This document shows, in pieces, positions 13,461-41,543 of a stretch of DNA of 64,000 nucleotides; positions within the stretch are counted from its first letter, which is position 1; each line of letters opens with the position of its first letter. Below the pieces are notes generated by a model that saw only the letters and a list, made by a program, of their open reading frames with translations, was not told where the DNA came from and did not search any database. The stretch spans positions 155,450-219,449 of the forward strand of contig JAPJBO010000342.1 of the NCBI GenBank assembly GCA_030068145.1, written 5' to 3'. This stretch comes from Diplonema papillatum. Lineage: Eukaryota; Euglenozoa; Diplonemea; Diplonemida; Diplonemidae. The position numbers were made by a program, and so were the translations under genes.

Positions 13461-13616
13461 TCGTTCGAAGGTGTAATGCCCTTATATCCCACTCAAAACA
13501 AATTTGTGCCCTTATATCCCACTTCAAACAAATTTTGTGCCCTTATATCCCAAACTGGGATATAAGGGCACAAATTTGTTTTGACAAATTTGAATCGAGG
13601 AAAATGCTGGAAAACT

Positions 13617-13696
13617 TGCCGAGGAGGGGCTTGAACCCCCGACCACTCACCTTGAAACCCAAGGGTGGTTGGCTCGACCATCCGGATACCTACGGC
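13617..13696 (-). other. tRNA-like sequence within the TIR element
   Basis: The minus strand reads GGTATCCGGATGGTCGAGCC, an A-box-like start, followed after ~30 bases by the strong B box GGGGGTTCAAGCCCC with a good T-stem. The anticodon arm does not fold into a standard 5-bp stem with a 7-base loop, and the acceptor stem is only partly paired, so this is a tRNA-derived or decayed sequence rather than a functional tRNA. An identical copy is at 41312-41392. Confidence 0.55.
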
Positions 13697-14739
13697 GAAA
13701 AAAAAAGCTTTTCGTCCAGCCGGGTCCCGACGCTGGACTCCTGTTGCTGTTGCTATTGCCACGTGCATGCGTGCACACTGCAGCACAGCCCCTGTCACAG
13801 CAGCGAACGAAGGAGGAGAGCGGGCGCGTGCGCTTTGACTCAAAGTTTGAGTGCTCAGACAGACAGGAACAACAGCGAAAGGTGGCGTTTGAGTGCACTG
13901 CCATGCTCCTGACATTGGCAGTGACATGGAGACATCACGTGTCGCGAGTTGACGCCCATGCCTGGGCCCTGGCACGGCGAGCCAAACCCGAAATCGAACC
14001 CGAGCCCAGAAGTTCGGGTGAGGAGTGATGGTGGCAGAACCGAACCCGAAACCGAACCTCAACCCGAAACTGAACCAGTGCCCGATAGCCTCGGATAGGA
14101 AACCAAACTCGGAACTGAACCCAGATTACAAGACAGATGGCCAGAACCGCGGAGGACGGTGGGCTAACAACCCAAGGTGGCGACACAGTCGGACACTGTT
14201 GCCGACAGACGGAATCTGCAGCTCGCGCAAGAATGGCTGATTCCTTCCTGAAGTCATCAACTGTCGTTGTGCCCACGCCTGCACCGCAACTGGTTGCACA
14301 CACACCGGTTGCACGACGGTGGACACAGCTTCCTTCACTGCAGTAATCTTCGCTTACGGATCATGAGTCTGATGAGATCAGTTGTCTCGCCTGACTCTCG
14401 GCTGTAGCATCTGGCCAGCTACTACAGTTCTGTCACCGCGATTAGCCCCGAACGTCAGCGTGGCACGCCGTGACACGCCGCACGGTCAGACGGTGCAGCC
14501 AGGCACCTGGCTCTGATGCGGTTCTCTTGAGTACTTGCTTGAGCCTCCCAAGTTGAGGCACCCGATCGGGGATCGAGTGTGGCCGCGGTGGCCAGCTTGA
14601 AGTTGTGAAACGGTGCAACCAGTCGCTCTGAGGCACCCAGAACGTCTTGAGACGTCTCGGGTGGGGCATTGAAGCCAGCTTTATGCCTACGGACAAGGAA
14701 ACACCAAAAACGGATGGAAGGGGGTGGACTGGGTCAAAA

Positions 14740-15170
14740 AATTTGGTCAAATTTTAGGGGTCCAAATTTTTGGGGTCGAAAATTTTGGTCGAGATTTTTG
14801 GTCCAAATCTTTGGTCGAAATTTTGGGTCCAATTTTTGGTCGAAATTTTTGGGGTCCAACTTTTGGGGTCGAAATTTTGGGTCCGAAATTTTTGGTCGAA
14901 ATTTTGGGTCCAAATTTTGGGTCCAAATTTTTGGTCGAAATTTTTGGGTCCAATTTTTGGGGTCTAAATTTTGGGTCCAAAATTTTGGGTCGAAATTTTT
15001 GGTCGAAACTTTGGGTCCAAATTTTTGGTCGAGATTTTTGGTCCAAATTTTTGGTCCAATTTTTTGGCATCGAAATTTTTGGGTCCAGATTTTTGGTCAT
15101 AATCTAGTTGGCAAAATTTTGTGGGCAAAAATGTTGGGGCAAATTTTGGTCGAAAATTTTGCCCTGGAAT
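14740..15170 (+). repeat. AT-rich minisatellite
   Basis: Irregular 14-16-bp units alternate GGTCGAAATTTT and GGGTCCAAATTTT types. All frames stay open because of the repeat, giving artificial proteins rich in FGSKF or KISTKN; these are not genes. The inverted counterpart is at 39150-39600. Confidence 0.9.
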
Positions 15171-15725
15171 TTTTGAACGTTGTGGCCGAGTCAAAGCACA
15201 CATGCCACCGACACCATAGGTGGCCGGTTCGGTTCCCTCAAAAGACTTTTTACACGACCAAACAAATTTTGTGCCCTTATATCCCACTTCAAACAAATTT
15301 TGTGCCCTTATATCCCAGATTGGGATATAAGGGCACAAAATTTGTTTGAAGTGGGATATAAGGGCACAAAATTTGTTTGAAGTGGGATATAAGGGCACAA
15401 ATTTGTTTGGGGTGGGATATAAGGGAAATTTACCTCGTTCGAAACGTACCGACACCCACGAACACCCCATTTTCTGGTCTGAGGGCACACCAGAGAATTG
15501 GTCAAGGGGTTCCTCTTGACGAAGGCCCTCAACATGACGCGACACATGAATAGGGAGCAGGCTGGTCACCAGGTACTCTTGGTATGCCCAAATCATACAT
15601 CGGTTGCAGGTGTACTCGCAACCCTCGTTAGATCTAAGTGCGGAATATGCACGAAAGAACCCTGTTACCCTCAGGTGAAGCGTGGGCCATTAAACATCAG
15701 ATGCCGACTATACGACAGTACGGTG

Positions 15726-18700
15726 TCATGACACGTCTGTGTACGCTTCCAGGTCGAGAGAGGTGATGACCTGCAAAGTCCGCAACAGCTCGGAGGCAGT
15801 GTCCTTCAGGCGTTCTTTCCGCGTTCTGTAGTAGGAAGTGGCCGAGAGGTTGCAAAGGGCGTTGTTGTGCTCTTCTGCAAGCCGCTGGCGTGCCCGCTCT
15901 ACGGCTTCGCGCGTGAGGCTTCTTTCGGTGGCTTCTGCTAAGCTGCTTTGGAACTGCGTGAGGAAGTCGTTCATCGAGGACCACATGCTGAGCTCCCGCT
16001 CCCGTCTCGCAGCCGCTTCCTGCTGACCGAGGCTAACTTGCTGCGTCCACATGTCGTGCGCCACCTCGCGTTCAGCGACAACTGCCGCCTCCCGCTGCTG
16101 CCGTCGCTCTTCCGCCAGCCGAGCCGCGCGCTCAGAGGCCAGTCGGTCTTCCGCCGCTCTGTTTTCAGAATTGGTGTGAAAGGGGGAAGGCGACTAGGGT
16201 CGGTTCATCCCAGGCTGGGTTCACACGAACGGCGCTTTGAGGAAAATTTTGATCCCGTCTGAATTGGTCAAGCAAGCGCTTTGAAAAAAAAAAAAAAAAA
16301 AAAAAAAAAAGACAGGCGCTTCGGTTTGTCTGTGCGTGCCGGTTGATCGTTTTCCCGCTTGCATTTACCCTGTGTCACTTTCAGGCAAGGGTTCTGATCA
16401 ACCACCAAAACACGCTGCGCGATGCATTGAACTAAAGGAAAAGGCACAGCTCAGGTTGCAAGGTGGCCCAGTCTGGTGGGCATCAGCGTACTGCTGGTAT
16501 TCAGGGATAAATCAAGACCTGTGCTCTGTGAACGGTGGTAATGCCTTGCAAGTAATCTCTTCATCGGGATGAAGGCGCTTACGCGTACACCATAAGGAGT
16601 CCGGTTCCATCGGCCGCTCCTGTCGAAAGCGCCGCAGGCGGAGTGCATACCTTCGTTTCGCTTCCTCGAGCGCTTCTCTTTCGGTCCCGATGCGCAGCCT
16701 CTCGTTGTCGGCTTCACGGCGCGCCCGTTGCTCGGCCGCACGGGCGCACGCAGCCCGCTCGGCAAGAAGCCGTGTCTCTTCCAGCAGCTTCTGCTCGTCA
16801 TCGGCCTTCCTGCGAATATCCTCTGCCCTCTTGACTTCTTCTTCGCGCTGTCGGGTTCGGGTTAGACGTCACGGTTAAACCCAAAAGGGCCAGTTTCCCC
16901 TGCTAGAACCTACCAACCAGGAGGGCGTGCCCGGATTCAATGAAGGGCTCGCAGGTGTTCGTGCGGCAAGCATAAAACAAAACAAACAGTGCCACCACTT
17001 CGTGTCAGGTGTCCACTTGATTCCGTATGTTGAGGGTTGTAGCCTTGTACTTCTCGCAACAAGTAAAAAAAGCTGCATACTCTATAAGCAGTGCGGGCTG
17101 CCTCGAGAAGAAACTTCTCTTCTTCTACGCGGAGCCGCTCCTGGGCTACGTTTCTTTTGTCTTCCGCGACTCGCAACGAGAGTTCTTCGTGTTCCCTGTT
17201 TTCGAGAGTGGATCAATGGCGAAGAAAGCGAGCAAAAGTCACAGAGTCTGCGTGAACTTCGAGACGGCCGGAGAAGAAAAATGCAAACACGTTTGCGCCT
17301 GCACTCACCTTTGGTGCCTGTCCGGCATTCCGTGTCCGAAATAGTGCAGTAGGTGGCAGGTACATGTTTTCGGGTACTGGCTTCAGTGGTCGTTGTCCTT
17401 ACCCCACCCTGGTGACGTGCGATCACCGGCGCCGTAGTCGGCTGTCGAATCGCCAGCCTGATTCCAACCAAAGGTCCAACGAAATAAGCGCCTAATTATG
17501 GAGGTCCAGTCTTCTAAAACTGGGGGGTCGACCCGCAAAATGAGTCGACCCCCCTATACAAAGAAATAAGAAGACGAAAAAGAAGGGATGTGTACCTCTG
17601 TTGCATTTCCCGTTCTCGCCGGCGCTCGTCCTCGGCACGGTGCTGTTGTTGGAGGAGGCCGAGGATCTGTTCTCTCTTGACGGTTTCCAAGGCGAAGACA
17701 GCTACGATCTGCTCGAAGTCCATGCGCTCGGCGGCGTGTTCCTTGCGTCTCGCGTCTTCTTCGAACGACGATAACTCGTGGCGTTGCAGCTGTTCGCCTT
17801 GTTTGCGCTGGGTCATCTCATGCGTGATTCGACCGATAAGCTTTTCTAGCTGCTGAACCGCAGCGGCGTGAAGAGACGACAGTGCTGCAAATTGAAGAGT
17901 CTGGTCATTCGCGACGACCTCCCTAGCTGAGAGTTCTTCGGTCACAATTCGGCGAACGGCTGAGTACTCGTCGAGTCGTCGATACGACTCGCGTTCCTTG
18001 CATCGTAGATCACTGGCGATCACTTCGTCGCGTGCTTGCTGTGCCTCCCGCCGTTCTCTCAGTTCTGTATCACGGCATTGGGTCATTACAGACTCTTCTC
18101 GCTCTTTCTGTTCCTTTGCTTGTCGGAGCGACTCTCGTTCGGCCTCCTTCCTCGATCGCTCGTCGTCCGTTTCCCTACGTATCCGCTCCATCTTCCTAGC
18201 CTCCTTCTCGGCGTTCTCTCTCTGCGCCTGCAGGACCTCTGCCTGCCGCAGCGCGAGGGTCAGCTCTTTATTTGCGGCAGCTTCGGCCGCAGCGTTTTTC
18301 TTCCTGTTCACTTCGACCACCTGCAGCTCGTGCTCCAGCTCCCGTTCTATTGCATCGCGACCATTCGATTCGGCGTGCTCGAGCTCGCACCTCCAGCTGT
18401 CCTCGGCTGTTTCCACTTCTTTCCGTTCAGCGGTCATGATACCAGCCCAACGTCGAAGCAGTGCGTCTTCTTCGGCCAATCTTTGTCCGGATCGACCGAC
18501 GGGGTATCCTCCTGCGATTCCATCGGCGATGGACAAGATCGGACTTCGGCTCCGTGTGCGGCCGAAGCGTTCGGGCCCGTCGTGCTGCGGCAGCGACTGC
18601 ACCGAGAACGGGGAGGTCGGAAACGATCGCACCATCGGCGAAGGCGGAGGCGAGGCGGCTCCGTACGGGTTACTGCTGACACCCAGTGTGGGCGAGAACG

Positions 18701-21700
18701 TCAACCGGCCGGGCGCCAACGGATTGCCGAACGCCGGAGCGCCGCGCGCGGGCAGTGGCGACAGGGGTCGAGGTAGTGCTTCTGGTTGCGCTTGTGGCTG
18801 TGGTTGCTGTCGTGCTTGTGGCTGCGCTTGTAGTTGTGATTGTGGCGCTTGCGGTTGTGCTTGTAGTTGTGATTGTAGTGGCGCTTGTGGCGGCGCTTGT
18901 AGTTGTGATTGTAGTGGCGCTTGCGGTTGTGCTTGTAGTTGTGGCTGTCGTACCGCTTGTGACTGTGCTTGCATTTGTAATTGTGGCTGCGGCTGCGACA
19001 GTGCTTGTGGTGCTCGCTGTGGTGGTGCATCACCGGCTGCTCTTGTCAGCGGAGCAAGCCCGCGGTTGCCCTTGTTTGCTCCAGTTGTGTCTGCCGATCG
19101 CAGTGCCGGCATCGAAGGGCTGGCCTGAGCCTGTTCGTCGGTCAATTCCCGCTTTTGGTAGCCGCGTCCGCCATACGGATCGGGGTCCACAACACCTGTA
19201 TTCGTCGCCCGCAAGCCCACCGGCCCCGCGTCCAGGCTGGCTGCCGTCGAGGGCACACCACCCCGAACCTCCGAGCTTGCCGGATGCGGTGCCTGTTGGA
19301 ATGACGGATCGACCTTCGGTGCAGAATTACTGGAGCCGGCCGACGCGATGGTTGCGCCACCTCGGCCAGGATGCGGGTGGACGGGATACCCAGATTGTCC
19401 GCGTCCGAGGTCAGTTGCGGCCGCTGTCCATGACGGAGAAACGCCTCCGATACTATTGGCCGGGATAGAGGGACTGACGACGCGTCCTGTATTCGGATCT
19501 CCCGTCGAGACATGCTCACTGGTGCTGGCGGTCATACCTGTGCCAGTATTCGGGTGGACGGGATACGCTGATCCGAGGCCGCTTGCGGCCGCTGTCCAAG
19601 ACGGAGAAACGCCTCCGACACTATTGGCCGGGATGGAGGGACTCGCGACGCGTCCTGTATTCAGATCTCCCGTCGAAACATACTCACGGGCGCTGGCGTT
19701 CATACCTGTGCCAGTATTCGGGTGCGCGGGATACGCTGATCCGAGGCCGTTTGCGGCCGCCGCCGTAGTGTTGTTTAGCGACAAGCCACCTGTGCTATCG
19801 TCCGGGTTGAAGGGATGCGTTACCCGTCCTGTTGTGGGGTCCACCTTTGGTGCAGAACCGCTGGCAGTGGCGGCCGCTAAGGCCGCGCCACCTCTGCCAG
19901 TACTCGGGTGGACGGAATCCATTGATTGTCCCGGTCTGAAGTCATGCGTAACCGCTGAACCGGTGTTGTTCCGTGGCAAGATACCCGCGCTGAAGGGATG
20001 CGTTGCTTGTCCTGTGTTGTCCACCTTCAGCGCATTATTCGGTGTAGGGCCGTTCATCGACGCCAAGGTCCCTCCACCTCTCGGGTAATTAGACTCCTGC
20101 CCACCGGCTCCGTTTGCAGCTGCACCAGTGTTGATCGGCGACATGCCACCTGTGCTGTTTGCCGGGAAAGAATGCATTGCCTGTCCTGGACCTGAGGAAC
20201 TGAGGGCGGGGTCACCGGGTGACGCTAAGGTTGCGCCCCGCCCGACGCTATTCGGGCTCGTGACATGAGTCACGCGTCCTGTTAGTGGGTCCACCACTGG
20301 AGCAGCTCCGGTGCTGCCCGACAGGTTGGCGGGATTTGGATGCGCAGTTGCCGGGGCCACCTGAGAAGCAAGGTGACTTGGGTTGGCAGGCACCAGCCGG
20401 CCTGACCCGGAAACTGCGTTCGCAGAGTTGGACGCAGTGGTGTATGTCGACCCCAATGCCACGCCGCGTGTGCCATTCTCAAAATGGTGAGGACGGCCAG
20501 GCTCACCAGCAACCTGCGGTGGGCTGAAATGCGAACTCGCACGCGGAGAAGGCGTGAGGTCGCTGAACGTGATTTCGTCACAGCTGATGCCGGTGGCAGT
20601 GGTATTCGCCTGTGGCGCAGAGTTGAGAGCAGGGTGCGCCTCAGGCGCTGTCCGCACAGAGTTACGTGCCTGGAGCGGGTGCAAAGCCGGGTTTGCTAGT
20701 GGTGCAGCAAATGAAGTTTGCTTGCCGGACAGCTGACACCTTGGCGACACTGAAGCGGAACGGTGTGCACTAAACTTCGCGGTGCCGTCAAAACCATGCG
20801 GGCTCCCCGCCGTATCGGCCTGCAAAGGGTGAAACTCCTGCGAGCGGTTTTGCAAAAGCTCCGTCCTTCTGCTTGCCTGAGCGGGTTCTGTCACGTTGAC
20901 ACTCTGGTCAAAGGGAGGCGCAGTCCTGAAGGACCTTTGCGTTTGCAATTGGACTGCATCCATCGAAAGACTCTGGCTCGACGGCTGGAGCAAGTTGCTC
21001 TGCGGGCTCAGCCCGCCGACTCCGTATCGCTCGATCAGGTCGCTGTATGCGGAGGGTCTGTTGGGAGCAATGCCCTTGCTGGTCATCGACGTGAATATGC
21101 TTTCCTTTGGCACGTCTACGGGGCTCCCTTCCCAAGTAGGCGGCGGCGGGAGGACAGCAGCGGACAGCTGCGCTCTGCGAACTGCTTCGTTGCGGCAGCG
21201 CTCTTCTAAGTTCGACCGCAACAACAATGATCCGGGGCTGGTGGGATCGTGCTCAGTGGAAATGGCAGGCGCCGGGCTAGAGACCCCGTGTGTGCGGGAC
21301 TTGTGAGAGCTGACAGAGGTGAAGAAGGCGTTCGTGGGTTTTTGCAAAGGGGTACGTTTCGAAGAGAAGAGGTGGCTTGAGAAGCTAAACCGACGGCCGG
21401 TAGCCTTTGTCTCGGGGAAAGATGAAACCCCGTTGTGCATGGTGGGGGTATTGTAAGAGGTCGCCTGAGCGGGTGAGGTTGGGCTGAACGTGCGCCTGGG
21501 GAACTCGTTGTCGAGGTTGTGGCTCCTGTCCGGGATGCATGCTTTATCTTGAGGATAGTCCGCAGCAGATGACCCGTTTGCCACGCTGGAGAACACTGCG
21601 ACAGGTTCGTCGTTGCCGATCGATAACTTTCTCTCGTCGTTGTCAGTGCTATTCTGCCGGTACGCGCGCGTGCCCACGGCGAAAGAGTCGCCCCCCCTTG

Positions 21701-24700
21701 CCGGCTTGGTCTTCCCCACCTTCTTTTTCTCGCCGCAGCAGAACACCCGGCAGCAAACGAGCATGGCGACAAGCACAATAGCGACAGCGAGCACGATGAA
21801 GATCAATGCAGTCTGACTGACCTCCTCTGGATCTGTCGGGTCAAACGCGCCGCCTATCCGACGATCCTCTGCCGCCACGGTGGGCACCGGCGTATCACAC
21901 GCGTGATTATCCACTCCTTCTCGAAAGCTGGCGAGTTCAAAACAGACCGGCCCTGACTTCAGACAGAGGACAACCGAGTGACGAACGGGTATCTGCAAGA
22001 AAAAAACGCCTTGCAGCCCGGGGCCCACGGGAAGGGTGACGGTGGCGTTTGCGAAGAAAGCCTCGCGGTGGACAGGCAAAGGGAGCTCGAACCAAGGTGA
22101 AAGGCCGTAGCAGCAGTGGTCAGACGATGGGTCGCCGGTTTGTAGGGTGATCGCAGAGTTGTTCGGGAGAAGCCTCGGGAGGGTTGGGGGAGGCGAAACC
22201 ATGACTTCGATCGTTGTGCAGGCCGAGATGTTGGCGGGCACAATGCTGACCGCAAAGTCCTCAGAGGGTATCACGCCCCTTGCAGCGAAATACACGCCTG
22301 TCGCCTTTCCGACTTCCACGCAGGCGCGCCACATCCCAGGTGGGAGCGAGACGCGCACCAACGTGTCGCCTGAGACGCTACGGATAAGCGCTTCCCCATC
22401 GACCACCCATACAATCCCAGCCTCGCTGCTGTCACACGCCACTGCAGAGGTCGCCACAGGTGCCGCCACAGAGGCCGCCGAGACTTGCGGAGTGGTGCGC
22501 TGGAAGAACACCTTCGCACCACTCTGCATTCCTCCAGTGATGACCACCGGTGTAGGGTATCCAGCTACGAACACGTCTAAGGACGGGAGGACGGTGGCGA
22601 AAGCCCAATCATACGAGACAGACACAGTGCCTACATGGCTGTACAGCGGTGTCTCTGAAGACGCGCTTGACACACAAATGAGCACCGAAGGAGTGAACGT
22701 AGTATTGTCAAGGGAAAAGGTGAAAACACCGGCGGACGAGACGAGGGTCGGTCCAACTATGGACCCTGCACTGGTATTCTGATCGCAGGCATCCTTCTGC
22801 AAGGTGACGAGCCACTGATTCCCGGGAGCAGTGGGGAACACAATGGCGCCGGTGCTGCCCGCCGTGTAGTCCACAGAAAAGTCAGCGGCCGGCTTCTCGA
22901 AAAAAGATCCAAACTCCAAAATGGGACCTTCGGCGGCAACGCCGGCAAACCGTCCCGGCACTTCGATACATATCCGATACCGTCCTTCTTCCCTGGCCAT
23001 GAAATCGTACGGGTTCGCTACAAGCTCTTCTTCACGGTCTACGCAATCCGCATTCGTCGCATCCGCAACTACTGGGACGACCCTGAAATACACCTCACTA
23101 GGCAAGAGGTCTGCGTGTGACTCCGCGCTAATTGTGACACTGCCGAACACAACGGGATCTTCACTCGAAAGATTCACCACGGGAGGTGGCCACACGTAGA
23201 TCCTTCCGCTGGGCTGATCGGAAAGACACGTCCAGAGGATGTCAGCTGCTACGGGGATGCTGACGTGCGCTGTGGCGTTTACGATGGGTGCCGCGAAGAG
23301 TAAAGGACCGGTGCAGTTGGGTGTAGTTGAAAAGGCCAGGGTCCCCGAACTAACAGGAAGGCGGGAAACGGTGTGGGGTGACGCAGTGCAGCAGAGCAAC
23401 GCTGTAAAAGACTGGGATATCTCGAAGGCCAAACCAAGGACCGAAGCGATGCGAACCCAGTTCGACGCGTCCTTCGTCTCCGCGCAGACGAAAAACTCGC
23501 CTACCATCCCGGGTCCGAAAGAGAATGACGCGCTTCCGTCGGCATCGAGAACAACCGCGTCTTCGTCCTGATGAAGGTCGTTGCAGGATGGGTCCGTCGC
23601 AAGTCGAAGCCGTTCGCTGTAATTCTCTGGATCTGGTACCTTGACGAGCACGTCACCTCCCTCAACGGGTACTTCGTCAGGCGACACAACCGCCGGTAAC
23701 ACAACGACCGCACTTACCTTCCCCACCTCAGCCCATTCCTCGTCCTCCGTCTCGTTCCCCACACTCTCTGCGGTAACACACGCAACAAACACTCCCGCCC
23801 TCGGCAACACTACGTCCAGCTCTAAATTTCCCGTGCTCACTGGAACCGGTCCCCACTCAACTGCATCGTCCGCGCATGATGCTCCTTCAGCCATCAGTCT
23901 TAATAACCCAGCAGACTGGAGATGGCCCAAACGAACGCGATCTGGTGCGCCCACGGCAAAAGTTGACGCGGAAAGAAACTCCCCAACACGGTACCGCCCG
24001 AGCGGTAAAAAGGAATCGGCAGTCAGGCGATACGTGCCACACAGCACAACCTGCGTCCCCGAAGCGACATCCAACGTAAAAGCCACGCCGGTGGAGAAAA
24101 TGACAGATTGGAGCTGGCCTCCGGTGACCGTGTTGTTCCCTCCTCCGTTGCAGGACGGCGCGTCGGCCATGACAAAGAGCTTGCGGCCAACCCCATTGGC
24201 AGGCAGGGTCGGCAGTATAATAACCCAAGGAACTAAACGACGGGGGGCTGCTGAAGAACCTTGGACGGGAACTACTGCAGGTATGGGTAGCACGTGCATG
24301 GCCCCAATTGGAACAACCACGTTCGGTTGGATCGACGAAGATGCAATAAGACCGCACACTGTAACAAAGAGTGTATCAGTCGGCAAGTTGGAAGGCAGTT
24401 TTGCGGTGAAGATACCGTCCGCACCGAGAGACTCTTGGTTTGTGTACTCATCTGAGCACGTTGGTCCGGCCAGCCACACGACTTCCACCCCGACTGACAC
24501 AGCATTTTCCGTTTCGATTGTCGCCATATCCGGGGAATTCAAGAACATCTCCTCTGGTGCAACCACCGAGAGAGTCCGCACTGGGTAGTCAGCAAGAGGA
24601 ATCCACAATGCAGCTTGTCTGACGCAAACGAAGAGCCTCGCATTTTGTGGCAGGCTCGGCCCGAAACTTGGAGCCCTGCCCGGCACGATGAAACTCACAG

Positions 24701-27380
24701 TACGCATCGAAGGGATGGCCTGGTCGCTAGCGGAGTCCGGAACAGCTGCTTCGCACGACTCGTCAGCAGCGACGCGCACCTTCAAACCGACCTCGGCAGT
24801 GGCTCCAAAAGTGACGGTGAACGGGACCCACTCTGTGATCACGCGATTGTCAACCCCCGGGACCACTGTCATGCTGACTCCGTCCTCTCCGGGGGCGGGA
24901 ACCGGCGGCAAAATCACGATAGTCACCGGACGCAATGCTTTGAACACGCCTGCGCGGACCCAGCCGGCTAAGTTGCGAGACACGCCAAGCGATTGCAAAT
25001 AGGATGAAGTGGATACCTGCACACACAGTGTCACGTTCTCGTTCTGAACGGGAACAGAGAACGACGCTTGTTGATCCGTTGTTGTTTTTCCAGCGTGCAA
25101 GATCACTCCGGGATCTCGAGTGGAATTGAAGTAGAAGGAAGCGAGAGAAGAGCAATCGGGCGCTGCTGATTGACGCGCGACAAAAAAGGTGCGCTCTTGC
25201 GCGGTGTTGGCGGGCGGCGCATCCGACGTGAACGACAGGTCGTTGAATAACGGCCAGCTAACAAGGCTGAAGGATTTCGTTACATTTGTGACCAGCTCTC
25301 CGAAGTTGACTCCCGTTCGGTGCACAGTAATTGACCCATTGAGACCAATCCATTCAAACCTCGCAGACCCAAACGCCGTGCTGTCAACACACACCGAAAA
25401 GACTGAAGCGGCAGACGCCCGACGCGACAGCTCAACTGAATCTCGTGACAGTGACGCTTCGTCAAGCTGATCTTCTGAGGGCTGAAAAAGCACAACGCCT
25501 CCCTCGGCGACTGTACTACTAGGATACCCCCACGGATGTCCGCGGACATCGTCACCTGGGCAGGAACTGTTCACCCCAGGTACGAACACCACTTTGGCCC
25601 CTTTTGACACCCCGGAGCTCATCAACAAGGCTGTCGGAACGCCTTCGATGGCATGATACGGCAAAAACGAGTACCTTTCCGCCACGGTGATGGAAGCCAG
25701 CCGAACCGAGGGCGGGTATCCCGTGCATAAGTCCCATGATCCCAACTCGGAAAAAACCACGCTCTTGCCGGATGTGCCCTCTTCGGCCAGTGGCTTGGTT
25801 TCGACCGAGAAAAACTTCGACAGGTCCGTAGTGCGAATGAGGCAAGCATTGTCGACCACGGGACTGCGGTAAACGAACGTAAGATTCAGCCCCTGCTGAG
25901 GGGTCGCTGGGTCAAATTCGAAATGATAGTCGCGGTGCTGAATAACAGCGCCCCGCTGCGTGAGATCGTAACTGCGGACAGGAGCTGAACCGGCAGCAAT
26001 CCATCGACTTGCATCGGCGGACTGCACGCAGATCGTGTAGTTGCCAGGGGGAATGTACAAGTGGAAGGAGGCGACACCTCCTGTAGCTCGGACCTTGTCC
26101 GTCAGAAACTGATAGCACGCCGTCGTCGCAGCGATGGCCACCAACGCTTCCGAAGGAGCGCCGCCTCCTATGGCCACAGTTGCCGGAAGCCCAGTGACGG
26201 CTTCGTCGCCTGGCATCGATAGTGACGCTATGAAATGTTCAGAGACCGTCAGGACGCCTTCGGTCAGAACGAAACTGCCTGTCGGCTTCTGGACGCACAC
26301 GTAGTAGGGACCAGGGGAAATAAATGTGAACGAGGCGACATAGGAGGTCGTCGTAACCGGTCCGAGGACAACGGTGCTCTCGCAGGATGCCGACAAGTGG
26401 AAGGTAACGCGAGTCGAAGGCGTGCGCATTGCTCCACCAAAAAGAATCGTTTCGACGCTGCCATATAGGACGGTTGTCGGCGAGAACGAGTAAGACTGGA
26501 CGGTAAGAACGCCGTCGGCAGGGACAAAAAACCCGGAATAAGGCGGCACCTCGACGCAAACGGAATACTGTCCGCGGGGTATGTCGACGAGGGACGTCGA
26601 GGCGATGGAGCCGAATTCGCCAGTCATTGCGACCGGGTTAGCTAGAACGAAGCTCGCGGACGAGCGGCAGCTGCTTTGCGTGGAGAGCGTCGAGAAGGAA
26701 TACTCAGCGACGCCCTGCGTGTCGATTTCGATGTCGACTACGTCGTTCATCAGCGCCGACGCTGGGAAAAAGGAAAAGCTCTCGGACACCGTGATCACCC
26801 CCAGGTTCAACCACACGCCAGTTGCCCACTCCGCGCAGACATATCCGCCCCGGGAAGTGAACACGAACGAGACTGAGTTCGTTTCCTTGTCGAGCACCGC
26901 CGGGTCGACAACAAAGAACCCGGCGTCGCACGATAGCCGGCTGCAAATCGCGACTCTACCACTCTCAAACTCGCGGGACAGCTCCATGAGTGTGCGCTCG
27001 CCGAGAAAAGCGTGCTTCGGAATGAATGCGAGCTCTGCTACCTCAACCACACCCGCGCTTGTCAAGATCATGGCTCCATCGTTCACGCACACCTCAAACG
27101 TACCGAACTCGTTCAGCGTGAACGCGGCGCTCTGGACGGAGTCAGCAGAGCGGTACTCGCCACCTAGAACTTCAACGCCTTCTCCACAAGACCCCGCAAT
27201 TATCGCTATTTCGCCGACATCGCCTCCCGATACGACTACCTCGAACATCACGCCTTTTACAAGTTTTCCAGAGGATATCTGGTAGCTGTACCCTCTGACC
27301 GCTTCGCTGTGTGTGCATCCGCACAGGATCGCGCACACGGCCAGCCTCGTGAAGATAGCGCATCCCTTGTTCAAGGACAT
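15726..27380 (-). CDS. Giant single-pass membrane protein: repeat ectodomain, low-complexity tail, C-terminal coiled coil (4 exons, ~3,509 aa)
   Basis: Exons: 27380-17596, 17195-17081, 16847-16651 and 16158-15726. Phases match at all joins; donors are GTACAC, GTATGC and GTATGC, and every acceptor ends ACAG. Total 10,530 nt. A signal peptide (TRLAVCAILCGC) begins the protein. Residues ~30-1850 are about seventeen divergent ~105-110-residue beta-sandwich-like repeats with a GxYxVCV motif, followed by a GVLTVxxxxSFxP linker. The TM is at ~1855-1880 (TALIFIVLAVAIVLVAMLVC), then a Cys/Lys stop-transfer (CCGEKKKVGK). The ~1,080-residue cytoplasmic middle is Ser/Pro/Gly-rich, with a mucin-like repeat (SIPANSVGGVSPSWTAAA) and a Gln/Pro tract (LQAQPQAPLQSQLQ). 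Residues ~2965-3509 form a long charged coiled coil, completed by exons 2-4. Probably a surface receptor or adhesin tied to the cytoskeleton; ligand unknown. Confidence 0.88.
16159..16650 (-). other. Intron 3 of the giant membrane-protein gene, with 27-base A/T tract
   Basis: 492 bp with donor GAAG/GTATGC and acceptor GAAAACAG/AG. A 27-base homopolymer (A on plus, T on minus) lies at 16284-16310, upstream of the acceptor, and with CCCTTTTCCCCCTTTCACACC forms the pyrimidine-rich stretch. Splicing joins phase 2 to phase 1 without a stop. Confidence 0.8.
16848..17080 (-). other. Intron 2 of the giant membrane-protein gene
   Basis: 233 bp, phase 0. Donor TATAGA/GTATGC, acceptor CCCGACAG/CGC. The flanking exons both encode charged coiled-coil sequence, and read-through would stop shortly after the donor. 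Confidence 0.8.
17196..17595 (-). other. Intron 1 of the giant membrane-protein gene
   Basis: 400 bp. Donor CAGAG/GTACAC, acceptor CTCGAAAACAG/GG. Splicing replaces a non-helical 27-residue read-through tail ending at 17514 with EHEELSLRVAEDKRNVAQER, continuing the coiled coil. The interrupted codon is Arg. Confidence 0.82.
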
Positions 27381-29297
27381 AGTCTGCCTCTAACAACCGC
27401 GGAGAGAGGCATGCACCTAACCCAAACGGAATACCCCACGCACTGGCCCTCCCTGATGTGTACGTGTCCTGTTTTTACGCGTTGTGTGATTAAAGAGTAG
27501 AGAACCAACTCGCCGCGAGTGCCGCGACTCGAAGCCGGACTGCATATATTCACGCAGACGCTGATCGGGGTTTTCTTGCTGGAGTCAAGGTGCTTTTAAG
27601 CTTGCCATAATGGGAACGAGTTCTGATGGAAGAAGTGAGCAACGGGCTAGCTGGAAGAAGGATAAGGAGACCAGACCAGACAAAAAGAGCATCTTTTCTT
27701 GGGCGCGAAGCCGAAGTCGCCGCAGGAGACGTGCTGGCATGCCTCTGCGGCCAATCAAAACGATTTTACGCCTGGAGCAGTTCTGCATCTTTGCTGCATG
27801 GGTCAGCGAGAAACGCGGTTTCACGAGGAAGGTACAGGTGATATCGACACAACACCAGTCGACTCAACCACCCATTACTGCATACGTTCCGTCGCGGCAC
27901 GTAGCAGAGCACTCTGTACACAGCGCATTACTAAAGTATCGTGATTTTGTTGGCTGGTGAGTGCTACCCCAGTTTCATGTCAAGATCACGAGAAATGAAA
28001 TGCGGAAGTGTGTGACTCTGGGAGTGTCCTTGTGGTTGGGTGGTCCGAGGAACCGTTGTCTTCAACGTTCGGTCCATTGAGGGGCGACGGACACAGTTTC
28101 ACTTCTGCTTGGCGACCTTCCCGGCAACAAGATTAAAATTTCTTGACCGATAGTCAGGTCGCTAACAGGGTTTAAGTGGGGCGAGCTAGGGGCGAGCGGA
28201 CGAGTTGGCGCATCGGGAACCAGCCAGGCGGACGTGTGGACAAGCGTCAATATTGTCGGAAGACTTGGTTGAAATTGATTGCGACGGAGGCGAAAGTCTA
28301 TTGCTGGGGTGTGTTTCGAAGCGAACATGGCGCCCACAAGCTTGGAGCGTGGAGAGAAGTCAAAACGAACAGCAGCACCATACGTCTAGCTGAAAGCTGA
28401 GCCAGGATTATCCTGGAATTCGACCAGAACAATAAATCTTCGCAGGCCATCCTCGGAGAGTTTCTCCAAAGGATGCAGGAGTAGCCATGACATAATAATA
28501 AGCAGACTTGCAGGCACGGAAGACCGTATCTGAGGCAGCTCTGCAAAGCTATGCTGCACATTCTGTGCTGTAGCTACAAATCAGGGCGAGTGCTCTGATA
28601 AGAAACACGGAGCTATGTTTTGCTAGTTTACTTCTAGAACACTTGTTCTCTGGTGTCGAAAGGAAACAGTCTGGAAATTGAGTGGTTGGTAAATATATAC
28701 GTGGAGGTCAGACTAATACAGCATTGCTTGTCGGTGCACAGTTCCTTCTCGTCTCGTTTTGTCAGTTCTTAGAAGATGACCGCACTTTGAACGATCCCAT
28801 GCACGCAAGTGGCCGAGAGGCATGAAACTGCTAAGACTGCACATGACTGGCTTCGAGACTCGCTACCCGCATCTCACCTTCGATATCTGCAGTGGCAAGC
28901 CTCTAGTTCATGAGACAGGTACCCATCTGGTCAAAGCCTTGAAAGCTCGAAACTGCACGATCTGCTGAAGCTCCAAATAGACTAGTTGTTGTGAACCGCA
29001 AGGTTTGTGTCGAAGGCAACTGTGACGTGATCGCAGTACGAGGACAAGCCCGATCATGTGAGCCCAGGAACGTGTATTTTCGCTGAGCCGAGCCGAGGCA
29101 TGTAAAACAAGAAGATCAGAGCAGTTCCGGAAACGGGGCGTCCGGAGGTTTATCGCGCCGATTTCCGCAAGTTGGTATCGGCATAGGCCGCAATAGCGAC
29201 GAACACATGCTACAGACTGAACGCTGCGGCTAAGCTGTGAATCGTTCGCAAGCCGACGATGAGCTGGGCGGTGCCGACAAGACCACCGTGGCACGCC
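27381..29297. other. Intergenic region upstream of the giant gene
   Basis: The minus strand just before the ATG at 27380 reads CTCTCTCCGCGGTTGTTAG, a pyrimidine-rich run ending in AG that could be a trans-splice or cis acceptor. The rest shows only short frames without recognisable content; the ~128-codon minus-strand frame at 28908-29294 is probably 3' flank of the zinc-finger gene. Confidence 0.45.
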
Positions 29298-31680: not shown

Positions 31681-31737
31681 GGGCTTGAGGTCCCGGGTTC
31701 GAACCCGGGCGAGGCACTTTTCCGGTCGGGTGAAGCT

Positions 31738-32330: not shown

Positions 32331-33639
32331 TCACGGGTCGAAAAACCCCTGGATCGAGGGAATTGACTAGATAATAGTTTTGACCCTAAAAAAGTGCCCC
32401 CGGGCTTCGCCCGCGGACCCCCCAAAAAGTGGGGTTGGCTCGATAGAGCTAATAGCATACCTCTAGTCTCGGAAAATCTGTAGCTAATATCCTGCCAGGG
32501 CTTACGCACATGGCTTCCGATGCTTTTGGGCTCAAATTTAATTTAATTCACATGCGGAACGTGCGGAAAAGATCCAAAAAGGTGGGGAAAAAAACTTTCC
32601 GAGTTTCAGGCAGGAGCCAGAAAAGGGTCCAGGTTGTAGTCTGGTAGGGAGAGGCTGCCCCCAACCTGCCATATTTGGGCCGCCAAGTCCACATCAGCAT
32701 TCCACCTACTATTTTCCAAGAAGCAATCATGTGCTTTGTTCCTCTTTTCCCCCTTTGAAACGTCCTGCCCACTCTTTACCTGAAAACAAGTATGCGTTGC
32801 AAACATTTACGCACTTTTTCCTTCGTGTTCTTGCAGGAGGTCCGCAACAAGCCGATAGATCCCGTGGCACCAAGCCAACTGCACAAAACCACGAAGTCCG
32901 CAAAGTGAGCGTTCTTGATTAGAGTGAAAGCTCGTAAGTAAGTTAATATACACTGCTCGATGGTCGCTTCACACTGCCGCACATCAACCTGCTCATCCTC
33001 CTTGGCTGTCAGCTGAGGCCTCTGCCCCTTGCTTCATTGAAGGCGTCCGCGGTCAGGCATATTAGTATTGCCTCACAGGTTGATTAGCCAGGCCAAAAGA
33101 CACATCCCAGGAGAAAAGAATCGGGGCAGGTTGACATTTACATGAGCCCTCTTCACAGTCCATGATCGCAAGCTGGGACCGGTGCCAGAGGAACAAACAC
33201 GTGTTGGTTTGGCGGGACACAGTTCGTGGTCTACAAGGCGAAATGAGAGCAAGACTTCGTACAAGAACCTCAAGAAAGCCCATTTTTGCTTATTGTGTGT
33301 GCTAATGGTCCACGCAATCAGTCGATGGATTGTTGCCCGACTCGGATGTAGGACGGACCCACCCTTCGGTCCAAGGTCTGGACGGAAATCCTGACTGTGA
33401 CAAAGCAATGATGGTAGGGGGCTGACCTTACACACATGTGAGTGCAAATTTTAATGCGGAAACACATGCGGAAAACACGTGCGGAATTCCACACGTACGG
33501 AAAATCACAATTGTATTCACGCGGAATTCCGTACGTTCCGCATGCGGAACGCAAGGCCTGAATTCGTAAATTAAGTACGTGCGCTCGGCTAAGGCCGGCG
33601 CGTGGCGAGACTGGAGGCAGCAGTTAAAGTTCGTGAGTT
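32331..33639. other. Region between SINE-like copies, no gene
   Basis: Contains a GC hairpin CGGGCTTCGCCCG at about 32402 and a cluster of GTGCGGAATTCC/CATGCGGAA motifs at about 33455-33550. No open frame is convincing. Confidence 0.4.
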
Positions 33640-34552
33640 CTGGTGAAGCTAAGATCGGGCGAAACAAAGTTCGGGCGAAACAAAGTTCGGGCTAAGCAAA
33701 GTTCGGGTGAAGCAAAGTTCGGGTGAAGCAAAGTTCTGGTGAAGCAAAGTTCGGATGAAGCAAAGTTCTGGTGAAGCAAAGTTCGGGCGAAGCTAAGTTC
33801 GGGCGAAACAAAGTTCGGACGAAGCTAAGTTCGTCGAACCTAAAGCAAAGTTCTGGTGAAGCTAAGTTCGGGCGAAACAAAGTTCGGGTGAAGCAAAGTT
33901 CGGGCGAAGCAAAGTTCGGGTGAAGCAAAGTTCGGGCGAAGCTAAGTTCGGGTGAAGCAAAGTTCGGGCGAAGCTAAGTTCGGGCGAAGCAAAGTTCGGG
34001 CGAAGCTAAGTTCGGGCGAAGCTAAGTTCGGGCGAAACAAAGTCCGGGCGAAGCTAAGTTCTGGGTGAAGCAAAGTTCTGGTGAAGCAAAGTTCGGATGA
34101 AGCAAAGTTCTGGTGAAGCAAAGTTCGGGCGAAGCTAAGTTCGGGTGAAGCAAAGTTCGGGCGAAAAGCAAAGTTCGGGTGAAGCAAAGTTCGGGTGAAG
34201 CAAAGTTCGGGTGAAGCAAAGTTCGGGCGAAGCAAAGTTCGGGTGAAGCAAAGTTCGGGCGAAGCTAAGTTCGGGCGAAGCAAAGTTCGGGTTCTGGTGG
34301 CAAGTTCGGCGCCAGTACCCCGGCCCCCCCCGACTCCGTTTCCCGTGGTGACCCAAATGCCGCGAGATACTGAAAAACTCCGCAAAAACGCAATTTTCGG
34401 GCACATTGGACCTGGAAACGCAACAAAACCTCGAAAACAATCTTCGACCGGAAAAATGTCATGGGCGGGGTTCGAGCCCGGACCCACCGGCCTGAAGGCC
34501 GACGCCCGGTCACTCTGCCACCCGCATACCTTTTGCGAGGGAAAAAAAAAGC
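33640..34552 (-). mobile_element. SINE-like element copy C, longest and best preserved
   Basis: Minus strand, 5' to 3': AAGCTTTTTTTTTCCCTCGC, the tRNA-like head starting GGTATGCGGGTGGCAGAGTG (A-box-like) with B box GGGCTCGAACCCC, body (about 34345-34460) with AATGTGCCCGAAAATTGCG and TCAGTATCTCGCGG, then a ~650-bp tail of about forty 15-16-bp units of GAACTTTGCTTCACCC type. The array keeps several frames open; the resulting NFASPEL-type proteins are artefacts. The head aligns with the tRNA-like sequence at 13617-13696, including the A/T run before it. Confidence 0.75.
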
Positions 34553-37020: not shown

Positions 37021-37125
37021 ATACCGTACTTGGAAAAAAGACGTACCGGAACAATTATGTACCGGAAATAAGACGTACCGGAAAAAAGATGTACCCGCGG
37101 GCCTCAGGGAAAACTTTGTGACTTT
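37021..37125 (+). repeat. Dispersed repeat with GTACCGGAAAAAAGAC units, copy 1
   Basis: Three AAGACGTACCGGAA-type units precede GATGTACCCGCGGGC and GGGAAAACTTTGTGACTTTTTCCG. A second copy is at 41544-41630. Confidence 0.7.
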
Positions 37126-37391
37126 TTCCGCTTGGTTGGGTTCTGCTGGAATTTGTCGCAGAGTGCTTGCGCAACTGCCTGCAACAGCCACATCCAGGAT
37201 CAAATCAAGACGCAACGATACAACGCTGCGCTTTTCTTCGAGATTCCGCTGCTGCCCCAATCCTGCCAGCTCAGCAGATCGTGCCGGCTGAGCAGGCCAC
37301 GGCAGATGAAGTTGTGACAGATGCCTCCCCATGGGTCATGGGCTGCACCGACCTCCGCACCGGTGCGCCATCAATTCACTTCCTTAGTTGG

Positions 37392-37548
37392 AGATATTCT
37401 CGCTGGTCCACGTAGCAGACCGTTTTCGTTGAATTTATGCTCACGTTCTGCTCCGATGAAGAGATTCGCGGAAAATGGACCCAGGAAACAAATAGTATGT
37501 GCGTGGTTTGTGGGTCTTTCCAATGTTCAGGGCAGCGGGAATGGAACC
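37392..37548 (+). repeat. Dispersed repeat family (GAAGAGAAYCG...GTGGGTCTTT), copy 1
   Basis: Shares GCTCCGATGAAGAGA, an ATAGACCCGGGGACCAAA-like stretch and TGTGCGTGGTTYGTGGGTCT with 38418-38600 (inverted), 44870-45030 and 45040-45190. The 700-bp element that follows seems to be inserted in this copy. Confidence 0.65.
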
Positions 37549-38248
37549 TAAAGCCCCCCCCCTCGTACTATATAGGTGGAAATCATCAGATATTTCCTGA
37601 AAAAGCTAAAAGTACACCCTCCAAACTTTCAGGGTGACTCGTACTAGTTAGCCACTATTTAACCACTATTTAACCACTGTTTAACCACTATTGAACCACC
37701 ATAAAGAACCGAGAGAATCGGGGCTCGGCGTCATTTAGAGTGAGGTCTCACTCTAAGTGATGCTGATTGCTCTACTCTTTAGTGACACTGAAGTCGCTAA
37801 AGGTTACTGGGTTTCCGCCGAAATCTTCCGTTTTTTCTAATTCTTCTAAGTGACACTGAAACCGCATTTTTCAGTCACAGTGGACAAAAGTGCATGAGTG
37901 TCACTTAGAGTGCGCCTCACTCTACGTGCCCCAACTGTCTATGGGCTCAGAAGGACTAAACACGCACTGTTCGCGCATTGCTGATGCAGTAGAGGTGGTG
38001 AACCTTGACGAATCAGTGATGATGGACCTGGACGCGCTCTCTGTGCTGGATCTGCATGCTGATACCTGTCCTTCACCTGCATCAAAGAGAAAACGGGGAA
38101 GGGACGAGCGTGAACTCTTAGCCGGAATTAAAACTTAAAAGTCGTTGCAGCTGGGGGCACCACCTAAAACTTTTAAAAAACAACACTCGTACTATTTACC
38201 TAAATAGTACGACTGCCTAAATAGTACGAGGGGGGGGGGGGGGCTTTA
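37549..38248. mobile_element. 700-bp element with TAAAGCCCCC...TCGTACTATWTAGG inverted ends
   Basis: The left end is TAAAG, a C run and TCGTACTATATAGG; the right end is CCTAAATAGTACGA, a G run and CTTTA, its inverse. Inside are ACCACTATTTA tandem units (about 37655-37700), a hairpin TTAGAGTGAG-GT-CTCACTCTAA (about 37735) and a short plus-strand frame (37890-38138) with a basic SKRKRGRDERELL end. No transposase or clear target duplication. Probably non-autonomous. Confidence 0.6.
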
Positions 38249-38417
38249 CACCGCGGTTTGGCAAGACTTTGCACCCTAGATTCACGCCAAAAAGGTCAAA
38301 ACTACCAGCGCAATTATTTTGCCACGTCGGGGCAAGTGGTGAAACCCCCGGAACTCGGGGATTGAAGATGTCACCTGACAGGCAGTGCAACAAGAAAATC
38401 CGAAATGGATTTTGATT

Positions 38418-38600
38418 TCCACGATCACCATTCCACATGGATCCACATCTCGAACTCTGGCGGGACGAACCACGTACATGTATTTTGGTCCCCGGGTCTA
38501 TTTTCCCCAGATCTCTTCATCGGAGCTGATCTCGAGCAACATATCGTCGAAAAAGGTCTGCAACGTGGACCAGCGAGAAACACTCCAAAAAACGACAACT
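38418..38600 (-). repeat. Dispersed repeat family, inverted copy
   Basis: On the minus strand this reads the CTCCGATGAAGAGATC...ATAGACCCGGGGACCAAA...ACGTGGTTCGT order seen at 44870-45190. Confidence 0.6.
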
Positions 38601-39149
38601 CAGTGCATCGAACCAGCAAACCGCACCACCGGCCCGCCGCCCACACTCCCCAACAAAATGATGTGTGCACGAGGGAGCCATGTTCGACGGGTCACAGGCA
38701 AAACGGTTGAACCGCGTCCAGTACTAAATTCGATACTCGTCGTGTTCTCTTGTGCTGATGCGGATTGCCAGAGCGCCACGGCAGCACGGGGGGTGGCCGG
38801 CGCATCTAGAGAAGTGTAAGCGAGGCCCCGAAAGTGAAAGCGGAGAGGGCGTATGAATGGTAGGGGGAAATAGCCCCTCCGAGATCTTTCAGAATTATTA
38901 GGTAAATTTCCCTTATATCCCACCCCAAACAAATTTGTGCCCTTATATCCCACTTCAAACAAATTTTGTGCCCTTATATCCCACTTCAAACAAATTTTGT
39001 GCCCTTATATCCCAATCTGGTATATAAGGGCACAAATTTTGTTTGAAGTGGGATATAAGGGCACAAAATTTGTTTGGTCGTGTAAAAAGTCTTTTGAGGG
39101 AACCGAACCGGACACCTGTGGTGCCGGTGGCGTGCGTGCTTTGACTCGG

Positions 39150-39600
39150 CCACAACGTCCAAAAATTCGAGGGCAAAATTTTCGACCAAATTTTGCCCCA
39201 ACCTTTTGCCCAACTAGATTTTGACCAAAAATCTGGACCCAAAAAATTCGACCAAAAATCTCGACCAAAAATTTCGATGCCAAAAATTGGACCAAAAATT
39301 TGGACCAAAATTTCGACCAAAGATTTCGACCAAAAATTTTGGACCCAAAATTTCGACCAAAAATTTGGACCCAAAATTTCGACCAAAATTTTTGGACCCA
39401 AAAATTCGACCAAAAATTTTGACCAAAAATTTGGACCCAAAATTTCGACCAAAATTTTTGGACCCAAAATTTCGACCCCAAAAATTGGACCCCAAGAATT
39501 TCGACCAAAGATTTGGACCAAAAATCTCGACCAAAATTTTCGACCCCAAAAATTTGGACCCCTAAAATTTGACCAAAATTTTTGACCCAGTCCAGCCCGT
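39150..39600 (-). repeat. AT-rich minisatellite in element copy 2
   Basis: Reverse-complement counterpart of 14740-15170, with CCAAAAATTTCGACC and GGACCCAAAATTTCG units. Related sequence also occurs at 53520-53672. Confidence 0.9.
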
Positions 39601-41311
39601 TCCATTCGTTTTTGGTGTTTCCTTGTCCGTAGGCATAAAGCTGGCTTCAGTGCCCCACCCGAGACGTCTCAAGACGTTCTGGGTGCCTCAGAGCGACTGG
39701 TTGCACCGTTTCACAACTTCAAGCTGGCCACCGCGGCCACACTCGATCCCCGATCGGGTGCCTCAACTTGGGAGGCTCAAGCAAGTACTCAAGAGAACCG
39801 CATCAGAGCCAGGTGCCTGGCTGCACCGTCTGACCGTGCGGCGTGTCACGGCGTGCCACGCTGACGTTCGGGGCTATTCGCGGTGACAGAACTGTAGTAG
39901 CTGGCCAGATGCTACAGCCGAGAGTCAGGCGAGACAACTGATCTCATCAGACTCATGATCCGTTTCTTGGCCTGACATACCAGTGACCACGGTCATTCTC
40001 CACTGTCCTTGTTGAGGCTGTGTCACACTGTGACTGTCACAGTGTCAGTCACTGAGTGACCGGACAGTGTCGCGGCAGCCGTAAACTGCACACCCACCGC
40101 ACGTCTGCAGGATTCACCTCCAGATTCGGGGACCAGAACACAGGGTATCGCTATAGCTGTCCGACTCCGAGTGCCTGGAGTGGAGAGCCTGGTCCAGTTA
40201 CCTCTGGACAATGGAGCAGCAGCTGCAGCAAGGAACAGCAGCAGGACCGGGACTACTGGCTCAGTGGAGGGAAGGCGCCGCTGTCACGCGGCTGCGAGTC
40301 AGCCACAGTCACAGCTGATTTCACTTACGCAGTGAAGCCTGCAGTGAAGGAAGCTGTGTCCACCGTCGTGCAACCGGTGTGTGTGCAACCAGTTGCGGTG
40401 CAGGCGTGGGCACAACGACAGTTGATGACTTTAGGAAGGAATCAGCCATTCTTGCGTGAGCTGCAGATTCCGTCTGTCGGCAACAGTGTCCGACTGTGTC
40501 GCCACCTTGGGTTGTTAGCCCACCGTCCTCCGCGGTTCTGGCCATCTGTCTTGTAATCTGGGTTCAGTTCCGAGTTTGGTTTCCTATCCGAGGCTATCGG
40601 GCACTGGTTCGGTTTCGGGTTGAGGTTCGGTTTCGGGTTCGGTTCTGCCACCATCACTCCTCAGAACTTCTGGGTTCGGGTTCGATTTCGGCTTTGGCTC
40701 GCCGTGCCAGGCGTGGGCGTCAACTCGCGACACGTGATGTCTCCATGTCACTGCCAATGTCAGCGTGGACGCATGCAGTGGCAAAGCAACAGCAACAGGA
40801 GTCCAGCGTCCGGCTGGACGAAAAGTTTTTTTTTTTCGGGGGTGTGAACGGTGGCTCAGGTCTGCACTGTGACTTTCGACAACGGCCCTGCCGTTACTGC
40901 CATATTCTCGTACTTATGTGCAACGCGCATGCACGTATGCATCGAAGCATGTACACATTCAGCCGTGTACCATGTGTACATTCGCTCAGTCTCGCTAGTC
41001 AGTGCACAAGTCCCAGTGATAAGGGCTCGAACAGCAAGTTGTCAAGGCATTAGCGTAACAGGCTACAGAATAGGTCTAAGCCTACACTGTCTAGCTGCAT
41101 CTGTCAGTCACGGGCGCTCCACCTGACCTACCCGGCCGTCACTAGTAAGGCCTACATGGGGGGATCAGTTTGCAGGAAGCCCCGACAATCGAATTCCTCC
41201 CCGTTTCCATTTTTCTTTCAGTATCAGTTCAGTTTCTAACCCGACGTAAACCCGGCCCAGTGAAGCCGTTGCCTACGGGCGTCGACATGTTAAAAAAAAA
41301 AAATTTCGCCG

Positions 41312-41392
41312 TAGGTATCCGGATGGTCGAGCCAACCACCCTTGGGTTTCAAGGTGAGTGGTCGGGGGTTCAAGCCCCTCCTCGGCAAGTTT
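41312..41392 (+). other. tRNA-like sequence within TIR element copy 2
   Basis: Plus-strand copy of the 13617-13696 sequence, starting GGTATCCGGATGGTCGAGCC with B box GGGGGTTCAAGCCCC, preceded by an A run and TTTCGCCGTA. The same anticodon-arm defect makes a working tRNA unlikely. Confidence 0.55.
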
Positions 41393-41543
41393 TCCAGCAT
41401 TTTCCTCGATTCAAATTTGTCAAAACAAATTTGTGCCCTTATATCCCAGTTTGGGATATAAGGGCACAAAATTTGTTTGAAGTGGGATATAAGGGCACAA
41501 ATTTGTTTTGAGTGGGATATAAGGGCATTACACCGAATTATTA

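Follow-up and report, generated by a model that had tools for sequence, protein, structure and literature searches.

A foldback-type transposon family of the Mutator superfamily with a tRNA-like unit in Diplonema

Two segments of a 64,000-nucleotide stretch of the Diplonema genome (contig 342, 155450-219449; hereafter the window), at 13470-15434 and 38901-41534, are two copies of one element in opposite orientation. In all probability, they are separate insertions of a non-autonomous DNA transposon of foldback type from the Mutator superfamily, moved by the Mutator-like element (MULE) transposase of relatives of about 5 kb with the same termini. We observed directly the termini, their repeat arrays, the target site duplications (TSDs), the number of copies, paralogous sites that no copy interrupts, and, in an element with the same termini, a MULE reading frame. 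The elements form a young Mutator-superfamily family of foldback build. We assign them to the superfamily because of the transposase and the TSDs, not because of the build; foldback build is not a clade according to the part of PMC3169594 that we consulted.

Copies, termini and target sites

Both window copies have the left terminus GGTGTAATGCCC and the right terminus GGGAAATTTACC; copy 1 begins with the letters GGTGTAATGCCCTTATATCCC and ends with GGGATATAAGGGAAATTTACC. An inverted-repeat search aligned the left ends (13470-13700 versus 41304-41534) over 231 bp at 100% identity and the right ends (15112-15435 versus 38900-39223) over 324 bp at 95%. The ends are arrays of a 31-bp unit, with three units one way plus one inverted on the left and two inverted plus four direct on the right. 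When folded as single-stranded DNA, both ends were far more stable than shuffled sequences (z-score -8.65 on the left and -18.89 on the right, with 0 of 200 shuffles equally stable for each). That is, the element has terminal inverted repeats (TIRs) of tandem subrepeats that snap back, the mark of the foldback type. A first-pass annotation of the window had described two copies at exactly these coordinates, with common ends, 31-bp terminal arrays and a minisatellite in each, all of which our inverted-repeat and array analysis confirmed.

We then searched the genome (271 Mb in 2,910 contigs; labels such as C177 denote its contigs, labels such as L031 fetched 10-kb stretches around full-length places). 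By its spliced-leader sequence the host is a diplonemid, most likely a single-celled marine flagellate: a 20-base piece of the Diplonema spliced leader had 624 exact matches in this genome, its reversed control 0. The exact 21-base termini occurred 349 times (left) and 324 times (right), while reversed-pattern controls gave 0. The last 182 bp of copy 1 used as query yielded at least 82 matches (40 of 1,038 candidates scored), about half of them the palindromic part in reverse reading. Pairing the listed exact termini on contigs 1-179 (all 100 listed left and 93 of the 100 listed right termini) in the same orientation and less than 9 kb apart gave 60 left-right pairs of 138 to 7,746 bp, the smallest of which resemble miniature inverted-repeat transposable elements (MITEs). 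For closer inspection, the window and 20 fetched stretches, chosen for a perfect right end, provided 23 elements in which left and right ends are both present; a further right end, in L039, had no left end in reach and was left out. The number of 31-bp units was the same in 21 of the 22 copies longer than 1 kb, a figure biased by this choice. The exception, L031, has a broken left array, and a 191-bp relative (L032) has a differing array, slightly different termini and an exact 9-bp TSD.

At 58484-59535 the window holds two duplicated arrays whose units (GCGCCCTTATCTCGACC...) measure 27-30 bp and are similar to but not identical with the element unit GTGCCCTTATATCCCA, possibly another array-ended family. 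At C10:127434-127882 (449 bp), two left ends face each other (108 bp) next to two right ends; these are likely nested or rearranged MITEs. The L042 element (4,978 bp at 4545-9522) has inserts at about element positions 1713-4452 with a hAT-like frame of 382 aa, recognised by eye, which are probably a nested transposon.

An exact TSD lay directly at both termini in 21 of the 23 elements. Its length was 9 bp in 13 of the 23, including L033, where the TSD is a run of A and its length therefore uncertain, and 10 bp in another 8, within the 8-11 bp, mostly 9, that characterise Mutator elements. As a control we compared left flanks with right flanks taken from different copies: among 506 such pairs, 0 matched over 8 bp or more and one over 7 bp. 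The TSDs are AT-rich (77% A+T versus 53% in the flanks). Because both classes are anchored at the termini, 9 and 10 bp are mutually exclusive, and the stagger therefore truly varies. Duplications of 9 bp had been proposed at first, with other genomic copies named beforehand as the test. They are exact and private in each window copy, in support of two separate insertions, and across the family they become duplications of 9 or 10 bp.

Several insertion sites could be compared with uninterrupted relatives. The joined flanks of copy 2 matched 38 other places across the junction (query position 160) without interruption; 34 of these matches, with identities of 80-92%, extended at least as far as query 216, and the other four ended at 182. 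Copy 2 was therefore inserted within another repeat family. For the L042 target, paralogues in L044 and L043 cross the junction with a single, partly diverged target copy; the L039 and L033 targets likewise have paralogues that cross the junction, within repetitive sequence. Two relatives of the copy-2 target repeat (C125:95760-96403 and C676:46414-46724) matched in two pieces split near the same point, and may carry other insertions near that site.

Table 1. Parts of the two element copies, in window coordinates
Feature	Position	Strand	Details
TSD copy 1, left	13461-13469		TCGTTCGAA, adjoins element
Copy 1, non-autonomous element	13470-15434	+	1,965 bp
Left end of copy 1	13470-13595	+	GGTGTAATGCCC terminus; 31-bp array, 3 units one way + 1 inverted; folds back, z -8.65
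tRNA-like unit, copy 1	13617-13697	-	read toward left end
TTTT of copy-1 tRNA-like unit	13611-13614	-	after 2-nt gap
B box of copy-1 tRNA-like unit	13627-13637	-	11/11
A box of copy-1 tRNA-like unit	13670-13680	-	10/11
AT-rich minisatellite, copy 1	14742-15161	+	13-bp period, TTTGGTCGAAATT
Right end of copy 1	15259-15434	+	2 inverted + 4 direct 31-bp units; GGGAAATTTACC terminus; folds back, z -18.89
TSD copy 1, right	15435-15443		TCGTTCGAA, adjoins element
TSD copy 2	38892-38900		GAATTATTA, adjoins element
Copy 2 of element	38901-41534	-	2,634 bp; orientation opposite to copy 1
Minisatellite, copy 2	39218-39589	-	
tRNA-like unit, copy 2	41307-41387	+	
TSD copy 2, other side	41535-41543		GAATTATTA, adjoins element

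Transposase-bearing relatives

Long left-right pairs without an exact 45-mer of the tRNA-like unit served as candidates for an autonomous partner. One of them, on C177 (214686-219750), is 5,065 bp long, has the same exact termini as the window copies and holds on its minus strand a reading frame, open over 945 aa or more, that runs up to the edge of the stretch read. Pfam matched this frame to MULE (PF10551, 1e-12) and Transposase_mut (PF00872, 4.7e-8), both over the cut-off, and to a zinc knuckle under it (0.026). By eye, with no alignment, we picked out what we take to be the DDE triad and C-x2-H motif of Mutator transposases (D360, D418, C-V-N-H at 439-442 and E516), followed by presumably SWIM-like (CTC...CVH at 613) and CCHC-like (at 715) motifs and GDGDC at 828. 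Pfam found neither a SWIM nor a FLYWCH domain in the frame, and its C-terminal piece, cut by the end of the stretch, stayed below the OTU threshold (E 0.011, 16.6 versus 23.3 bits). The search for an autonomous partner with a MULE transposase and the same ends had been suggested by the first-pass annotation; together with the TSDs, the C177 element supports its reading of a Mutator-like TIR element.

The 2.8-kb frame DNA recurred at full length and 99-100% identity in at least 15 places, C177 included (40 of 106 candidates scored); other matches were fragmentary or diverged, with identity as low as 75%. Such near-identical copies suggest recent activity. Ten of the transposase places scored lie on contigs up to 179, and six of these fall within exact left-right pairs (C177, C151, C110, C55, C174 and, as fragments, C106:344035-346233). 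The transposase reads toward the left end in C177, C151, C110, C174 and C106; in C55 its two parts point in opposite directions. None of six further pairs longer than 4 kb and without the 45-mer (C1, C35, C37, C128, C162 and C179) had a transposase match among the candidates scored, so that length alone does not mark an autonomous copy.

We propose the following mechanism, which is the simplest and the usual one for Mutator elements. MULE transposase made in trans by the relatives of about 5 kb would attach to the 31-bp units repeated in each end. It would then mobilise the element and insert it into AT-rich DNA, where cuts with a stagger of 9 or 10 bp would leave the duplications. Arrays of like units could offer several binding sites per end, and snap-back may play a part as well. 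The non-autonomous copies, without a transposase gene and with the tRNA-like unit, the minisatellite and assorted inserts, would descend from transposase-bearing ones and would be moved by a C177-type transposase. Their tRNA-like unit may be a tRNA gene that was captured, decayed and now travels as cargo; its RNA polymerase III (Pol III) promoter might still be live.

Several points weigh against this interpretation. No transposition was seen. The C177 element was read over 3,101 of its 5,065 bp, and its TSD and arrays are putative. For its frame, the NCBIfam IS256 match (1.1e-11) is under that model's cut-off, and the best match in the PDB, a Mutator family transposase, is not significant (E 0.062). 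Four of the ten transposase places (C90, C106:340821, C156 and C60) lie outside exact left-right pairs, C90 with an exact left end 0.75 kb off. Beyond the termini, the C177 stretch has 63 bp alone in common with the non-autonomous copies, just upstream of the transposase frame and about 90% identical to window 14626-14688, a likeness that hints at common descent. Two of the 23 sampled copies lack an exact TSD (L043 matches at 9 of 10 positions, L035 has none). Finally, the uninterrupted copy-2 target places, known from their matches, are mostly 16-17 bp or more longer than the query; 16-bp repeat units adjoin the copy-2 insertion, and the extra length would represent one more such unit.

One genome thus contains a matched set with the same exact termini: near-identical transposase copies, a non-autonomous group of about 2 kb and MITE-like copies from 138 bp. 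The DNA transposon was probably active recently, and the family can serve as a marker of transposition in an organism about whose mobile DNA little has been published.

The tRNA-like unit and alternative explanations

The 81-nt tRNA-like unit lies just inside the left end and is read toward the left terminus, from which its offset varies by at most 1 bp in 21 of 22 copies longer than 1 kb (L031 differs). Its exact 45-mer occurs at 123 places in the genome, and a 24-mer at 206 with up to three mismatches. Among the 60 left-right pairs, 23 contain the exact 45-mer (lengths 1,751 to 4,241 bp), and four more contain the exact 24-mer among the matches listed (C20 twice, C35 and C151:204902). Of the 31 listed 45-mers on contigs 1-179, 29 have an exact left terminus no more than 260 bp away, and eight are outside any exact pair. 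In the 100 exact 24-mer matches listed, in contig order to C749, the six transposase-bearing pairs are absent; the unit therefore appears to mark the non-autonomous branch.

That the unit is a functional Pol III gene of advantage to the element or its host, as a small RNA, promoter or chromatin boundary, is an idea with real points in its favour, although we judge it unlikely. It has a B box (11/11), most of an A box (10/11) and the terminator TTTT two nucleotides on. Within the window this combination, whose criteria were chosen after the sequence had been seen, is found in the two copies alone; from 30 first-order Markov sequences one would expect 0.03 occurrences. In its minimum-energy fold the unit resembles a cloverleaf, as did a mere 8 of 500 shuffles, and the 123 exact 45-mers speak for the same explanation. 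However, the fold energy is ordinary (z-score -1.08, 29 of 200 shuffles at least as stable). ARAGORN in ordinary settings made no call at the unit and named it tRNA-??? at an 80% threshold; the Rfam tRNA model gave no match to it up to E 10. The exact 24-mer is also missing from the listed matches in the six transposase-bearing pairs. The first-pass proposal of a tRNA-like cargo thus keeps its B box, most of its A box and its terminator, but not acceptance by these two tRNA searches.

Nor is the unit clearly more conserved than its surroundings in this young family. Among 21 copies (L031 left out), pairwise difference was 0-0.3% in the two bins of the unit and 0-0.9% in nine of the ten interior bins (521 to 1170), with 4.8% in the tenth. 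We had considered special selection on the ends and the tRNA-like unit, as both are almost the same in all copies, and dropped it: much of the interior is nearly as uniform, the minisatellite is more variable and the sample was chosen for a perfect right end. A pattern search for an intact tRNA that could be the parent, sharing the acceptor stem and both boxes of the unit, found 0 places. ARAGORN on 53 sequences (364 kb) returned a single doubtful tRNA-Ala (GGC) in the window, at 4320-4410 on the minus strand, within a 660-aa frame on the same strand and probably a false call. Rfam assigned no family to the window at the gathering score; at a loose threshold, one piece of a transfer-messenger RNA model fell on the tRNA-like stretch at chance level (E 0.56), and we rejected it.

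Somewhat less probable again is the broader proposal that a MULE has scattered more than 100 near-identical working Pol III units with terminators, each a possible source of small RNA or transcription boundary. Transcription in this genome is believed to proceed in long polycistrons, and tRNA genes of the related kinetoplastids are held to act as transcription boundaries. If the proposal were true, small-RNA sources or transcription boundaries would be spread across a polycistronic genome.

It is very unlikely that the element is moved by another class of transposase, as Galileo is by a P-type enzyme, with the MULE copies having no more than similar ends. TSDs of 9-10 bp fit MULEs and not P or hAT elements, whose TSDs measure 7-8 bp (8 bp in hAT), and MULE DNA lies within exact left-right pairs of the family itself. 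In the eight window frames scanned with Pfam, the sole transposase was of the hAT class, with its TSD of 8 bp. Such a mover is conceivable in that foldback-type ends occur in unrelated transposons, as stated in the consulted part of PMC3169594.

A short interspersed element (SINE) or other retroelement with a tRNA head and incidental arrays would explain why a unit with A and B boxes adjoins a homopolymer run. For the element as a whole we regard this as refuted and give it scarcely any weight, because the duplicated target lies outside the terminal arrays and not around the unit, and because the offset of the unit from the left end is nearly constant; for the cargo alone, a SINE origin is possible. 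Segmental duplication or an assembly artefact has practically no probability: draft assemblies can duplicate repeats, but the flanks differ between copies, each copy has its own private duplication, and copies lie on many contigs.

Other window features and comparison with known systems

The window contains a second transposon class, an open 904-aa frame with a hAT dimerisation domain (54304-57018, minus strand; Pfam 1.8e-6). We searched viral contigs for relatives of this frame and of the MULE frame, and none was confirmed. A Mob1/phocein frame of 333 aa (47204-48205, minus strand; Pfam 4.3e-60) is open with no apparent intron in the matched part. Between the two element copies runs an uninterrupted 3,291-aa frame (17514-27389, minus strand) with no Pfam match up to E 0.01, whose product looks like a repetitive secreted or membrane protein. 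A 16-bp unit, AGTTCGGGCGAAGCAA, is repeated 40 times at 33636-34291, with shorter related arrays from 31.4 kb, and a long tandem array of units of about 365 bp (59752-63738) switches orientation near 62.8 kb, which creates many inverted pairs.

Non-autonomous elements with a Pol III promoter include the Cassandra terminal-repeat retrotransposons in miniature and the tRNA-headed SINEs; these are retroelements, unlike the Diplonema element. In titles and abstract openings, a scope that left aside supplements and most subscription journals, we found no description of tRNA-bearing MITEs or MULEs or of OTU-bearing MULEs.

The Foldback (FB) elements of Drosophila reportedly have 9-bp TSDs and a NOF transposase that groups with Mutator. 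Contrary to that grouping, the portion of PMC7642927 that we consulted calls FB P-element-related. It describes blocks of 27-31 bp repeats whose direction switches across the middle, a likeness in description to the short, opposed repeat blocks of our element. In FB the repeat number varies between copies, whereas here, in a sample chosen for a perfect right end, it is constant in 21 of the 22 copies longer than 1 kb.

For Diplonema papillatum, probably the same host species, a genome of about 280 Mb with 52% repeats has been reported, along with more than 60 open reading frames resembling DNA-transposon proteins, including TATE, MULE and Helitron (PMC10161547). Element ends, a foldback build and a tRNA-like cargo are all absent from the part of that report we consulted.

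Among the published elements that we found, Tm1 comes closest, a Mutator/Foldback family of root-knot nematodes (Meloidogyne), as portrayed in the consulted part of PMC3169594. The first-pass annotation knew no named family for such a structure; the name exists, foldback type for TIRs of tandem subrepeats, and Tm1 has nearly the same anatomy. Tm1 comprises 61 elements; in 45 of 53 the TSD measures 8-10 bp, most often 9 (PMC3169594). Like the Diplonema family, it has composite TIRs with tandem subrepeats, and the short motifs at its two extremities differ from each other. It likewise comprises a class that encodes a MULE-type transposase, a MITE-like class, and a non-autonomous class with an RNA-structure motif, a histone hairpin there and a tRNA-like unit here (PMC3169594). 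The two differ in their subrepeats, of about 14 bp in Tm1 (PMC3169594) versus 31 bp here, and in the inverted unit that the Diplonema element has in each end. The Diplonema transposase has no FLYWCH domain by Pfam and instead SWIM-like, CCHC-like and OTU-like segments, and its family has hundreds of termini against the 61 elements of Tm1. The tRNA-like cargo is the counterpart of the Tm1 histone hairpin, which suggests that the capture of small structured RNA genes by foldback MULEs may have happened more than once. With foldback ends and a MULE partner together in a diplonemid, the link between Mutator and foldback elements drawn for Tm1 extends to a distant group of eukaryotes.

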